From positions 1-51,471 of the forward strand of contig JAJDDT010000059.1 of the NCBI GenBank assembly GCA_029260165.1: DNA of 51,471 nt, read 5' to 3'. Within the stretch, counting starts at the first letter, position 1. Every line of letters begins with the position of its first letter. The position numbers were made by a program, and so were the translations under genes. Below are positions 6,606-11,608 of this stretch, piece after piece. Source of the stretch: Phycisphaerae bacterium (lineage in GTDB: Bacteria; Planctomycetota; Phycisphaerae; UBA1845). Under the pieces are notes generated by a model that ran no database searches, had not been told where the DNA came from, and saw nothing but the letters and a program-made list of their open reading frames with translations.

Positions 6606-7802
6606 ATGATTCCAATTCGCACCGAGATGGTTATTCGCCGGACGCCGATGGCGAACTATGCGCTGGTGGGGCTGAACGTTCTTGCCTATCTGGTTTTCAA
6701 TCAGCTTGGTGGTTCGCAGGCGGAGGGATTTGCGAATCGATACCTGATGCTGCAAGCGGAGGTGCCGTCGCTGTATCAGTTTTTCACCTACCAATTCCTG
6801 CATGCGGACGTCATGCACCTTGCGGGGAACATGATTTTTCTGTGGGTGTTTGGCAACAGCGTGAACGCGAAGATGGGTGATCTGCCCTATTTGATGTTCT
6901 ATCTGGCGTGCGGGGTTTTTGCGGGGTGGGGGTTTGCGATTGGGAACGTGGCTCCGCTGATTGGTGCGTCCGGGGCGATTGCGGGGGTGACGACGGGGTT
7001 CCTGGTCCTGTTTCCGCGCAGTCGCGTCACGGTGATGTATTTTTTCTTTTTCATCGGGTTTTTCGATATTCCCGCGATGCTGCTGATCGGGTTGAAGATC
7101 ATTCTCTGGGACAACATTATCGCGCCGCAAATGGGTTCGGCGGGGACTGTGGCGTATTCGGCGCACCTGGCTGGGTATGTGTTCGGGTTTGTCGGGGCAT
7201 TGCTGATGCTGCTCGTGCGGGCGTTGCCTCGGGATCATTTTGATCTGTTGTCGTTGATGGATCGCTGGAACCGTCGTCGCCAGTTCCAGTCAGCCATGAG
7301 CGCACCGGGGGCGGACCTGCGTGCATCGTACGGTCGCGTGGCGAGGGATGTGCCTCGATCCGCGCAGGAGCAGGGAGCGGAAGACATCCGGTTCGATCGC
7401 GTGTCCGACCTGCGATCGAAAATCAGTGATGCGATTGATGCGGGGGATGTTGCCGGAGCTGCCCGGGTTTACGGGGAGCTGGTGGGTGTTGATCCGAAGC
7501 AGTGTCTGCCCGCGAGGCAACAGATCGTGATTGGCAAGGAATTTGTGAATACGCAGCGGTCTTCGCAGGCAGCCAACGCTTTTGATCGCTATTTGATCAA
7601 TTATCCGGGTGGTGCGGATACCGAGGAGATTCGGTTGCTGGTTGGGATTATTTACACGCGGGATTTACAGCAGCATGAGACGGCGGAGAAACATCTGAAA
7701 CTGGCGTATGCGCGATTGAGGGATGCGGGTCGGCGGGCGTTGGCGAAGGAATGGCTTGAATCGGTTTGTGGACGGCTGGGAAAGACGATGGATCATGCCT
7801 GA
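6606..7802 (+). CDS. Rhomboid family intramembrane serine protease with C-terminal TPR-like tail
   Basis: 398 residues. About six transmembrane segments fill residues 15-205. The rhomboid signatures are intact: H66-x4-H71-x3-N75 in the second helix, catalytic Ser122 in GASGAIAG, and His187 in AYSAHLAGY. It should cleave transmembrane substrates within the membrane. Residues about 250-398 are soluble helical repeats (VAGAARVYGELV, then AANAFDRYLINYPGG), likely cytoplasmic and possibly substrate-recruiting; this extension makes it longer than GlpG. Its last codons overlap the start of the aminotransferase gene (ATGCCTGA), so the two are translationally coupled. Confidence 0.9.
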   Translation: MIPIRTEMVIRRTPMANYALVGLNVLAYLVFNQLGGSQAEGFANRYLMLQAEVPSLYQFFTYQFLHADVMHLAGNMIFLWVFGNSVNAKMGDLPYLMFYLACGVFAGWGFAIGNVAPLIGASGAIAGVTTGFLVLFPRSRVTVMYFFFFIGFFDIPAMLLIGLKIILWDNIIAPQMGSAGTVAYSAHLAGYVFGFVGALLMLLVRALPRDHFDLLSLMDRWNRRRQFQSAMSAPGADLRASYGRVARDVPRSAQEQGAEDIRFDRVSDLRSKISDAIDAGDVAGAARVYGELVGVDPKQCLPARQQIVIGKEFVNTQRSSQAANAFDRYLINYPGGADTEEIRLLVGIIYTRDLQQHETAEKHLKLAYARLRDAGRRALAKEWLESVCGRLGKTMDHA

Positions 7803-8655
7803 ACTGGCCTGTCTCAACGGGGAATTTGGTCCGATCGCGTCGGCGAAGGTGTCGGTCAACGATCGGGGATTTCAGTTTGCCGACAGTGTGTATGAGGTAG
7901 TTGTCGCGTACGACGGCCGGCCTTTTCGCATGACCGAGCATCTGGATCGGTTGCAGCGGAGCCTGTCGTTGTGCGATATGCCGATGGATGTGGGCGAGTT
8001 GGGGTTGGCATCGTTGGTGACCGAAGGGATCGCGCGGTCGGGGTTCGACGCGACGCTGGTGTATGTGCAGATTACGCGGGGGGTGCAGGACCGGAATCAT
8101 TTGTATCGCGACGATTTGACCCCGACGGTGTTGCTGACGTTTCGAGAGAAGCAGCCCGTCAATCCGGATTGGTTGCGGGACGGCGTTCGTGTGATGACGG
8201 CGACAGACGAGCGTTGGGCGTTGTGTGAGATCAAGGCAACCGGGTTGTTGGCCAACGCGCTGGCGAAGAAGCGGGCGGTTCGCGCCGGGTATCAGGATGC
8301 CGTTCTGGTGTCGCCGGAGGGGTTCGTTCGCGAGTGCACAGCGTCCAATATTTTTGCCATTTGCGGGGGCAGGCTGATCACGCCGACGGCGGATGAATCG
8401 ATTCTCCATGGCGTGACGCGGCAATATGTTTTGGAGTGTGCCGCGTCTGTCGATGTGCCGTCTGAGGAACGTCCGATGACGGTGGATGAGCTTCGATCGT
8501 CTGATGAGGTTTTCATTTCAAGCACGACCATGAACATCCTGCAGGTGACGCGCGTGGACGATCGCGAGATCGGAAATGGCGGAGCCGGTCCAGTCACGCG
8601 ATCCTTGCAGGAGGCGTTTCGGCGTGGGATTTCGCAGCCCGGGCAGGTGGTGTGA
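7795..8655 (+). CDS. Class IV aminotransferase, D-amino-acid transaminase type
   Basis: 286 residues from the ATG at 7795, overlapping the rhomboid stop by eight bases. It is a PLP fold-type IV enzyme: VNDRGFQFADSVYEV near the N-terminus, the PLP Schiff-base Lys at about 147 in CEIKATGLLANALAK, and the cofactor-binding Glu in FVRECTASN. The wording of the first motif and the K-A-T-G-L-L-x-N segment are closer to D-alanine transaminase than to IlvE, suggesting D-Ala/D-Glu supply for peptidoglycan. Aminodeoxychorismate lyase (PabC) is the main alternative. Coupling to a membrane protease is unusual and its meaning is unknown. Confidence 0.85.
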   Translation: MPELACLNGEFGPIASAKVSVNDRGFQFADSVYEVVVAYDGRPFRMTEHLDRLQRSLSLCDMPMDVGELGLASLVTEGIARSGFDATLVYVQITRGVQDRNHLYRDDLTPTVLLTFREKQPVNPDWLRDGVRVMTATDERWALCEIKATGLLANALAKKRAVRAGYQDAVLVSPEGFVRECTASNIFAICGGRLITPTADESILHGVTRQYVLECAASVDVPSEERPMTVDELRSSDEVFISSTTMNILQVTRVDDREIGNGGAGPVTRSLQEAFRRGISQPGQVV

Positions 8656-8763: not shown

Positions 8764-8815
8764 TCTGCCTTGGGACATCGAGATATTTTCACAGGACGTA
8801 CACGGAGTTTGATCA

Positions 8816-9376
8816 ATGTTGAAGGCGGTGGATTTGCGGAAGGGGAAGACGGTTCTCCATGATGGAACGGTCTTTGTGGTGCACGAGGTTCACCATGTGG
8901 CCAAGGGCAACAAGCGCAGCTACATGCAGGGCAAGCTGAAGAACCTCAAGACGGGGGTGATCAATGAAGTTCGTTTCAACGTTGATGATCGCCTTGAGAC
9001 GCCTTTCATCGAGAACAAGAAATATGAGTATCTGTACAAGGACGGGGAGAGCTTCGTTCTGATGGATACCGAGACGTACGATCAGTTCAATGTTGACGCG
9101 GCGATGTTCGGGGATTCGACCAGGTTTCTCAAGCCGAATGAGCTGGTGACCGCGACGATTTGCGAGGGCGAGATTGTCGATCTGGAGTTGCCGGTTGTTG
9201 TAGAGCTGGAGGTTACCGAGGCCCCACCTGTGGTGAAGGGGGCGACGGCGACGAATCAGCTTAAAGAGGCGGTCATGGAGACCGGCGTGATGGTTCGCGT
9301 TCCGCCTTTTATTGCCCCTGGTGAGCGCATCCGCGTCGATACGCGCACGGGTGATTACGTCGATCGGGCAAAGTGA
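8816..9376 (+). CDS. efp: Elongation factor P
   Basis: 186 residues, full family length with KOW-like N-terminal, central OB, and C-terminal domains ending in the canonical RIRVDTRTGDYVDRAK. EF-P binds between P and E sites and rescues ribosomes stalled at polyproline. The loop that normally carries the modified Lys34 (V-K-P-G-K-G-Q-A-F in E. coli) here reads V-A-K-G-N-K-R-S-Y. Gap-free alignment to the conserved K-L-x-x-L-x-T-G that follows puts Asn32 at the tip and Lys33 one residue later. A canonical beta-lysyl, rhamnosyl or aminopentanol modification at the usual position would therefore be impossible. Apparently monocistronic, with its own promoter upstream. Confidence 0.95.
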   Translation: MLKAVDLRKGKTVLHDGTVFVVHEVHHVAKGNKRSYMQGKLKNLKTGVINEVRFNVDDRLETPFIENKKYEYLYKDGESFVLMDTETYDQFNVDAAMFGDSTRFLKPNELVTATICEGEIVDLELPVVVELEVTEAPPVVKGATATNQLKEAVMETGVMVRVPPFIAPGERIRVDTRTGDYVDRAK

Positions 9377-9549: not shown

Positions 9550-9703
9550 CACGCACGGATGGGGGTGCCTCTGCCGGCGCTCGTGCAGGTTCATCCACTG
9601 ATTCGATCATGATCGCTGACCAACTGGTTGCGGGCCGTTGCCTTATGGCTGCTCGGGTCAGGGCGGCTGTGGGATTGAAATGACTAACACTGGAGAAGTA
9701 TTG

Positions 9704-11608
9704 ATGTTTGGCAATCGGAAAACGGTAAGGCTTGTGGCGTCGCTGATCGTTGGCGTGTCCGTCGGCGTGGTGTACGCGGGTGGTACGATCAACGCGGAGC
9801 GGATCGCGTCGGGATTGAATCGGCCTGTGGATTTTGTGTCCGCGCCGGGAGATGTGGACCGGATGTTCATTGTTGAGCAGCCCGGGATTATCCGCGTATT
9901 GGACCTGACCACAAACACGGTTCTTCTGACCCCGTTCCTGGACATCAACACGCGGGTGAACAATGGTTTTACCGGTAACGGTGAGCGGGGACTTTTCTCG
10001 ATGGCGTTCCACCCGAATTATTTTGTGGATGGTGACCCGAACCAGGGCGCGTTTTTCGTGCACTATTCGTCCAACACGGGCGCGACGACAATCGAGCGTT
10101 ACCACGTTTTTGCAAATGATCCGGATCGTGCGGACGTAAACAGCAACGAGCTGATTTTCTCCACGACCCAGCCATTTGCGAATCACAATGGTGGGACGAT
10201 CGTTTTCGGGCCTCAGGATGGCTATCTTTACATCGGGTTGGGTGACGGCGGGTTTTTCAACGATCCCAGTGGCCGCGGTCAGGACATCACCAACCAGCCT
10301 TTGGGCAAGATTTTGCGTTTTGACGTTGACGGCGAGGATGATTTCCCAGCCAGTGCGACGCGCAACTACGCGATTCCCGAGAGCAATCCGTTCGTTGGGG
10401 TGGCAGGTGACGACGAAATATGGGCGTACGGAATTCGCAATCCGTGGCGAATGAGTTTTGATCGCCTGACGAACGATTTGTACATCGCGGACGTTGGTCA
10501 GGACGCCCGCGAGGAAGTCAATTTTCAACCGGCAGACAGTGCGGGCGGGGAAAACTATGGCTGGCGTTGCAAGGAGGCGCTTGGGTGCACGGGTTTGAGC
10601 GGGTGTACATGCACGGATCCAACCCTGGTTGATCCGGTTCACCAGTATTTCCACTCCCAGGGGTTGTCGATCACCGGTGGTTTTGTTTATCGCGGGTGCG
10701 AGATTCCAGAGATTTTTGGTCACTATTTCTTCACGGATTTTGTTTCAGCCAGAATCTGGTCGTTTCGCGTTGAGGATGGTCAGTTGGCCAACTTTACGAC
10801 GTGGACGACGGACCTGAACCCGCCTGATATCGGTGGTTCGATCAATCAGATTTCCTCGTTCGGCCAGGACGAGAAGGGCAACCTGTACATCGTGGATCGC
10901 GGTTCGGGGAACGCGAGCAATCAGGGGCAGATTTTCAGGATTGTTCCCGAGACGCCCTCGACGCCGGACGGGAATGGTCCGGTCGTCATGCATGACGGTG
11001 GCAGCGATGCGTTGTTCGGAGGCTACATCGATCCGCGTGCGGAAAGTTCGAATGGTGTTGATGTGGACCTCGCGTTAAACGAGATCGTGCTGGAATTCAG
11101 TGAGCCGGTGGTCAGGGACAACTGCGCCCTGATTGGTGCGTCTGATTTCTCGGTTCGCACGACAAACGGGGATGTCCTGGCGGTTGCGAGTATTGATGCA
11201 CGGCGGAATCCGACGGTTGTTGTGAAGCTGGATGGCGGAATTCCGCTGCAGGAGTGGACGACGATCGAAGCCACGGTGAGCGATTTTGACCGCAATCTGA
11301 TCAACAAGGCCGGCGACCTTGGTGCGGGTGCGAACGAGGACGATCGTATCGACATCGGGTTTCTGCCGGCGGATGTCGATCAGTCGGGTGTCGTATTGCC
11401 TTTGGACCTGTTCCGTTTTCGACAGTTGGTCAACGGTGTCGTGACACCGGATGTTGGCGCGATCGAATTGTTTGTCGATACGGATCGCAACGGTGCGGTT
11501 TCGCCTTTGGACCTGTTCCGGTTCCGTCAGTTGATTGGTGGAACAGGATCAGCCACGCGTGCCTGGTCCGAAGCACCGAACAACACGATGTTGTCCACCC
11601 AACCGTAA
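9704..11608 (+). CDS. Secreted PQQ-dependent sugar dehydrogenase-like propeller with dockerin-type C-terminus
   Basis: 634 residues from the ATG at 9704, preferred over 9680 because GGAG lies nine bases ahead and it starts a clean signal peptide (MFGNRKTVRLVASLIVG, cleavage after VYA). Residues about 30-410 are a glucose/sorbosone dehydrogenase six-bladed propeller (LGDGGFFNDPSGRGQD, then YGIRNPWRMSFD and IADVGQDAREEVN). These oxidise aldoses outside the cell with PQQ and calcium. A Cys-rich loop near 290-310 is an insertion. Residues 430-550 form an Ig-like region, and the last 70 residues carry two dockerin-type calcium loops (DVDQSGVVLPLDLF and DTDRNGAVSPLDLF). Single-gene unit with its own promoter and terminator. 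Substrate unknown. Confidence 0.88.
   Translation: MFGNRKTVRLVASLIVGVSVGVVYAGGTINAERIASGLNRPVDFVSAPGDVDRMFIVEQPGIIRVLDLTTNTVLLTPFLDINTRVNNGFTGNGERGLFSMAFHPNYFVDGDPNQGAFFVHYSSNTGATTIERYHVFANDPDRADVNSNELIFSTTQPFANHNGGTIVFGPQDGYLYIGLGDGGFFNDPSGRGQDITNQPLGKILRFDVDGEDDFPASATRNYAIPESNPFVGVAGDDEIWAYGIRNPWRMSFDRLTNDLYIADVGQDAREEVNFQPADSAGGENYGWRCKEALGCTGLSGCTCTDPTLVDPVHQYFHSQGLSITGGFVYRGCEIPEIFGHYFFTDFVSARIWSFRVEDGQLANFTTWTTDLNPPDIGGSINQISSFGQDEKGNLYIVDRGSGNASNQGQIFRIVPETPSTPDGNGPVVMHDGGSDALFGGYIDPRAESSNGVDVDLALNEIVLEFSEPVVRDNCALIGASDFSVRTTNGDVLAVASIDARRNPTVVVKLDGGIPLQEWTTIEATVSDFDRNLINKAGDLGAGANEDDRIDIGFLPADVDQSGVVLPLDLFRFRQLVNGVVTPDVGAIELFVDTDRNGAVSPLDLFRFRQLIGGTGSATRAWSEAPNNTMLSTQP

Follow-up and report, generated by a model that had tools for sequence, protein, structure and literature searches.

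An elongation factor P with asparagine at its loop tip in a Phycisphaerae bacterium, and the pairing of this tip with Lys or Arg at positions 33 or 34

The window, the whole stretch of 51,471 nucleotides analysed here (assembly GCA_029260165.1, contig JAJDDT010000059.1, positions 1 to 51,471), comes from a Phycisphaerae bacterium of the order UBA1845 (Planctomycetota) and carries an efp gene for elongation factor P (EF-P). The encoded protein has Asn32 in the slot where other EF-Ps have the tip Lys or Arg of the beta3-omega-beta4 loop. Typing of its homologues showed a near-exclusive swap between Lys32-Gly33 and Asn32 plus Lys or Arg at position 33 or 34, which occurred over many switches in the tree. 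The Asn tip itself is known; the new element is the rule that a Lys tip goes with Gly33 and an Asn tip with a basic residue at 33 or 34.

The open reading frame (ORF) of the window is a genuine and complete EF-P. Its product scored 207.4 and 210.3 bits against TIGR00038 and PRK00529 (cut-offs 185.8 and 161, respectively), and PF08207, PF01132 and PF09285 of Pfam each matched above their cut-offs. The score against TIGR02178 (EfpL/YeiP) was 123.6 bits, below the cut-off of 264.05. The loop codons GCC AAG GGC AAC AAG CGC AGC were read as A29 K30 G31 N32 K33 R34 S35. In the five phmmer alignments shown (Clostridium, Thermus, two Staphylococcus and Corynebacterium), no gaps were present through the loop and N32 lay opposite the tip K or R. 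An AlphaFold model built from 116 sequences (mean pLDDT 86.8, pTM 0.62) contained strands at 18-28 and 36-43, so that the loop comprises residues 29-35 with N32 at its centre, as the fourth of seven residues. The top structural matches to the model by Foldseek and VIA were EF-P entries, with Z up to 21.0. The sequence-only reading had placed Asn32 in the canonical tip slot with Lys33 beside it, and the gapless alignments, the model and the codons bore this out; none of the alignments made moved Lys33 into the slot.

The Asn tip is a widespread class and not an oddity. Typing of EF-P homologues in 169 planctomycete genomes covered 216 proteins: 105 had an Asn tip, 62 a Lys tip, 18 a GKQ tip and 8 a shortened D-R-R tip; 21 had an EfpL-like loop motif, of which 20 formed one clade in the tree, and 2 were other, one of these being a fragment without the loop. 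Sixty genomes of the order were searched, including the source genome of the window, and 55 of them gave a match: 51 with the Asn type, one with a Lys tip (GKGR, locus L022) and three with GKQ only. In the phylum sample of 118 genomes (source genome included, completeness of at least 90 requested), 115 gave a match, and without the source genome the Asn type was found in 54 of 114 matched genomes. The query of a contig search for named loci was an alignment that combined 17 Asn types with L022, which biases the search towards them; the best 80 of at least 575 relatives comprised 42 Asn, 37 Lys and one Arg tip. Among these best 80, Asn types occurred in Paludisphaera soli, Candidatus Brocadiaceae, Sphingobacterium, Mucilaginibacter, Ignavibacteriota and Acidobacteriota, and Bacteroidota was among the phyla with Asn tips. 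The sequence-only reading had treated the tip as a one-off, which did not hold for a class that was, moreover, already in print. The alignment across Planctomycetota that it had proposed found the Asn tip to be common and also brought out the pairing with positions 33 and 34, which that reading had missed.

The source genome is split into 119 contigs, and a frameshift, misassembly or misalignment was considered as the origin of the tip. The same tip was found in the EF-P of a congener with 87% identity, and together with the Asn tips in 51 of the 55 matched genomes from the order this shows that it is not a sequencing slip. The alignment is also free of gaps and the frame is open and preceded by a ribosome-binding site; the probability of an artefact is therefore negligible.

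The tip was closely tied to the two residues after it. Lys or Arg was present at position 33 or 34 in all 105 Asn-type proteins, that of the window included, compared with 1 of 62 Lys-type proteins. Arg34 was found in 97 of the 105, and the remaining eight (NKG, NKA, NKP) had Lys33. The Lys-type proteins had Gly33 in 62 of 62 cases, and in 37 of 37 among the best 80 named loci, where a basic residue at 33 or 34 occurred in all 42 Asn-type proteins, in 2 of the 37 with a Lys tip and in the one with an Arg tip. The named loci and the set of 216 overlap slightly and are not wholly independent, L224 being identical to L022. In mutual information with the tip, position 33 ranked first (0.998 bits), and positions 34 and 29 reached 0.791 and 0.666 bits, respectively.

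Position -2 was more variable. The Asn-type proteins had 53 Lys, 47 Pro, 4 Arg and 1 Gln there (n = 105), and 50 of 62 Lys-type proteins had Pro. All 51 Asn-type proteins of the order had Lys at -2, that is Lys30, which lies within the loop and might itself be the modified residue in the order instead of Lys33. The Pro, Arg and Gln found at -2 in the other Asn types mean that such a modification would be a local invention, and we know of no Lys30-modifying enzyme; we regard this as very unlikely.

The swap was also seen when changes were counted along trees. By parsimony on 164 rows, the tip changed 6 times and the charge 5 times, and 5 of 5 charge changes fell on branches with a tip change; on 107 rows the counts were 13, 11 and 11 of 11, respectively. 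A FastTree tree of 108 rows calculated without the loop columns (28-37) gave 15 tip changes and 13 charge changes, with 13 of 13 on shared branches. The branch overlap was 0.867 for 33/34 and at most 0.13 for pairs of neighbouring columns away from 28-35 (101 pairs tested); pairs containing position 32 are trivially high in this test, and the pairs 28/29 and 29/30 gave 0.28 and 0.30, respectively. The Asn type did not form one clade. Several deep forks were weakly supported, and the trees do not settle in which direction the changes ran. Two lineages with GKGR tips, L022/L224 and a Scalindua (L276), were the exceptions to the rule. They look like intermediates and show that Arg34 can still be present when the tip changes.

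Lys-type EF-Ps carry a positive charge at the tip, position 32, which is lengthened by modification in many species; the modification is made by EpmA in E. coli and is a 5-aminopentanolylation in B. subtilis. We lean, with slightly better than even confidence, towards the reading that the Asn-type EF-P works unmodified, with Arg34 supplying the charge of the tip and Lys33 taking over this part in proteins that lack Arg34. The cation of Arg34, or else of Lys33, would replace the tip Lys of position 32, Asn32 and the non-Gly residue 33 would set the shape of the loop, and in the order Lys30 may add a further charge where other proteins mostly have Pro. As judged from the sequences compared here, the class most likely carries no modification, would contact the CCA end and would act on polyproline. 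The K34N variant of E. coli EF-P is described as inactive (PMC6544042), and in the E. coli loop, given as KPGKGQA, the residues after K34 are Gly and Gln (PMC11611912). K34N thus leaves Gly and Gln next to the new Asn, and its inactivity is as expected if Asn alone is insufficient.

The EF-P of the window resembles the Lys-type EF-P in its three domains, its seven-residue loop and the equivalog cut-off that both pass. It differs in the tip itself, in having Lys33-Arg34 where the Lys type has Gly followed by a non-basic residue, in Lys instead of Pro at -2, and in the lack of EpmA above the cut-off in its genome. Arg-type EF-P is rhamnosylated by EarP in beta-proteobacteria and pseudomonads. 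The protein of the window shares with it an arginine in the loop and the absence of Pro at -2 (for the Arg type as described in PMC6544042), but its Arg34 lies two places past the tip. Actinobacterial EF-P (C. glutamicum, 6s8z) works unmodified and keeps the Lys tip in K-P-G-K-G-P; we take it to be the case of a stiffened loop, as opposed to the charge that would be moved here. Loop composition, in the sense of stiffness, is presented as a route to modification-free function in PMC11611912. The same source describes EfpL (YeiP), with its Arg33, as unmodified by mass spectrometry and gives docking that suggests that the arginine can reach the CCA end, which makes it a precedent for a modification-free factor. 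By analogy, the Asn type may likewise work unmodified with a loop arginine; EfpL has a loop of more than seven residues and an Arg tip, unlike the seven-residue loop and Asn tip here.

Genes for modifying enzymes were searched for in a panel of 80 genomes, 53 with the Asn type and 27 others. The source genome had no EpmA above the cut-off, as a check proposed by the sequence-only reading; its top match to TIGR00462 was an ORF of 530 aa resembling lysyl-tRNA synthetase, with 236 bits (below 286.9). Fourteen control genomes gave matches in this search, 2 of them above the cut-off. None of the 53 Asn-type genomes had EpmA above the cut-off, compared with 10 of the 27 others (Fisher P 5e-6; this and the other P values for the enzymes ignore relatedness); outside the order the counts were 0 of 23 and 10 of 27, respectively (P 9e-4). 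In 5 of the 10 genomes above the cut-off, EpmA adjoined the Lys-type efp. Of the two choices offered by the sequence-only reading, the absence of a modification gained from the lack of EpmA above the cut-off in the source genome and from a tip that is neither Lys nor Arg. The other, an unusually modified Lys33, fared poorly: 38 of the 105 Asn types had Trp33 and 20 had Leu33, so Lys33, absent from 58 of 105, cannot be the common target, and a modified Lys33 is unlikely.

Several observations weigh against an EF-P that works unmodified with a relocated charge. Kinship inflates the raw counts, and the branch test mends this only in part, its P values assuming that changes are random over branches. 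EpmA was also below the cut-off in 17 of the 27 other genomes, and its absence is thus not peculiar to the Asn type. EarP (PF10093) gave no match in the 80 genomes, the source genome included, and the control genomes likewise gave no match. A gene matching the deoxyhypusine synthase (DHS) family above the cut-off was present in 50 of the 53 Asn-type genomes and in 11 of the 27 others (P 3e-7), and outside the order in 21 of 23 and 11 of 27, respectively (P 3e-4). This association could hint at a modification and is the chief point against its absence.

Alternatively, the class might have a modification of its own, placed on Asn32 or on Arg34/Lys33 of the loop by a hitherto undescribed enzyme. 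Asn32 is held in 51 of the 52 main-type EF-Ps of the order, L022 being the exception, and more than half of bacteria are stated to be without a known EF-P modification enzyme, with undiscovered ones expected by the authors (PMC6544042). On the other hand, N-K-R, N-W-R and N-L-R are not N-X-S/T sequons (consensus as given in PMC5615199), and neither Arg34 (absent in 8 of 105) nor Lys33 is a universal target. We consider such a modification unlikely, though it deserves more weight than any other alternative. A narrower version, in which the class bears a new kind of modification on Asn32 or Arg34/Lys33 made by an unrecognised enzyme, with the DHS-family protein as the first candidate to rule out, appears improbable. 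No DHS match was found in 3 of the 53 Asn-type genomes, and the one DHS-family protein examined, from another genome (L389, genome G042), scored 582 bits against a cut-off of 500 for the NCBIfam 1,9-bis(guanidino)-5-aza-nonane synthase, by name a polyamine enzyme. Many Asn-type loops (T-P-G-N-W-R, T-P-G-N-L-R) are without any lysine, and the known deoxyhypusine reaction requires lysine according to PMC6544042, where DHS-like proteins were noted earlier in species with Lys or Asn tips. Given the lysine-free loops and the polyamine-type NCBIfam match of L389, the DHS family, although present and associated, was set aside as the modifier, and its link to the Asn type is probably indirect.

The Asn-type EF-P might instead be weakened or specialised, with polyproline synthesis left to a second EF-P, EfpL, ABC-F or YebC (the last two were not searched for). 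Second homologues do occur: a GKQ paralogue was found in 15 of 51 Asn-type genomes of the order, and an EfpL-like protein in 12 of 54 of the phylum sample. In the source genome (estimated completeness 100%), a domain search across the 119 contigs found one EF-P-domain gene and no second EF-P. A search with the EF-P protein as query gave a single match there, and the same search picked up the GKQ paralogue of about 30% identity in relatives. A second paralogue with a normal tip, which the sequence-only reading had named as evidence against itself, thus did not appear in either search, and the EF-P of the window is probably the main and sole EF-P of its genome.

Two features of the source genome add to the points against an active, unmodified factor and would fit a weakened one. 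The first is that its ValS (L304/L317, contig C82) has Pro-Leu-Pro and thus does not itself demonstrate a need for Pro-Pro-Pro synthesis. The ValS proline triplet is reportedly conserved, going by the title of a 2014 paper. In the panel, 77 of 80 genomes had a ValS match and 70 planctomycete genes were read, 53 with Pro-Pro-Pro and 17 with Pro-Leu-Pro; the 16 Pro-Leu-Pro loci other than that of the source genome lie among L317-L386. Asn-type genomes had 35 Pro-Pro-Pro and 13 Pro-Leu-Pro and the others 18 and 4, respectively. The loss, striking in the source genome, was therefore not linked to tip type (13/48 vs 4/22, P 0.55). Pro-Pro-Pro was kept in ValS by 24 of 33 genomes whose only EF-P found was of the Asn type, which argues that the class probably serves polyproline synthesis.

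The second feature is that the three complete tRNA-Pro genes of the source genome have D-loops of 10 nt, one base above the length that E. coli EF-P accepts. According to PMC4890201, one extra nucleotide in the D-loop essentially abolishes the effect of EF-P in E. coli, and the 9-nt length is well conserved. A Lys-type relative (L076) shares the 10-nt D-loop, as do 3 of the 9 tRNA-Pro genes read from plasmids of other phyla (12 stretches examined, 3 of them with no tRNA-Pro); this length was therefore rejected as a change matching the Asn tip. No match to a similar tRNA was found in the E. coli genomes searched. Taken with the single EF-P of the source genome and the Pro-Pro-Pro retained elsewhere in the class, a weakened or specialised role is rather improbable.

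Asn tips have been reported before: in 2.2% of genomes without yjeA/yjeK (PMC2821294, 2010), with Pro at -2 in 100% in a set of 1166 sequences (PMC6544042, 2019), and as a mention in 2024 (PMC11611912). The passages on the Asn tip in these three papers give no mechanism. The EF-P of the window has the same tip residue and differs from the published ones in Lys30 at -2 instead of Pro. Lys at -2, the link of Asn to Lys or Arg at 33/34 and the repeated switching were not met in the openly licensed literature searched. For the question of how EF-P works in bacteria without known modifiers, the rule offers a concrete hypothesis in which EF-P acts unmodified, and it points to the residues to exchange. 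The hypothesis can be taken to the bench, since named strains of both Bacteroidota and Planctomycetota carry the Asn type. If the hypothesis is true, EF-Ps for cell-free systems without a modifying enzyme could follow.

Table 1. Positions of the efp gene, its loop residues and other genes of the source genome.
Feature	Position	Strand	Remarks
efp, EF-P gene	8816..9376	+	186 aa plus stop; ATG start
EF-P domains	KOW-like 4-59; OB 68-121; C-terminal 129-184 (residues)		order as expected
GGAG, likely ribosome-binding site	8804..8807	+	8 bases before ATG; seen in the sequence, putative function
beta3-omega-beta4 loop, residues 29-35, A-K-G-N-K-R-S	8900..8920	+	codons and predicted strands
Asn32 codon (AAC), slot of tip Lys/Arg in other EF-Ps	8909..8911	+	alignments
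Lys33 (AAG) and Arg34 (CGC), proposed relocated positive charge	8912..8917	+	covariation; putative role
Lys30 (AAG), position -2	8903..8905	+	typed relatives
DHS-family gene, source genome	G000:C56:8100-8981		match above cut-off; one of 61 panel genomes
tRNA-Pro, three complete genes, source genome	L312:1092-1168; L315:1489-1563; L316:1468-1542		4-bp D-stem, 10-nt D-loop

Other EF-P-like proteins and tRNA sequences were noted in the same genomes. The second homologue with the tip G-K-Q-[KR] (L054-L071, about 30% identity) was present in 18 genomes of the order, 15 of which also had the Asn type. Eight genomes, 7 of them also with the Asn type, had an EF-P-like protein whose tip is shortened to N/S-D-R-R in place of G-x-x (L185, L208-L214). 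In L312, the complete tRNA-Pro(GGG) gene is followed about 1.2 kb downstream by a 3' fragment of the same gene (at about 2369-2410), as from an integrated element or a duplication.

Gene order around efp was uninformative, with the upstream aminotransferase adjoining efp in only 2 of 30 loci (source genome and congener). The neighbours of efp in the window are a rhomboid-domain protein (6606-7802), a class IV aminotransferase (7723-8655), whose longest ORF overlaps the rhomboid ORF, and a glucose/sorbosone-dehydrogenase-domain protein (9638-11608).
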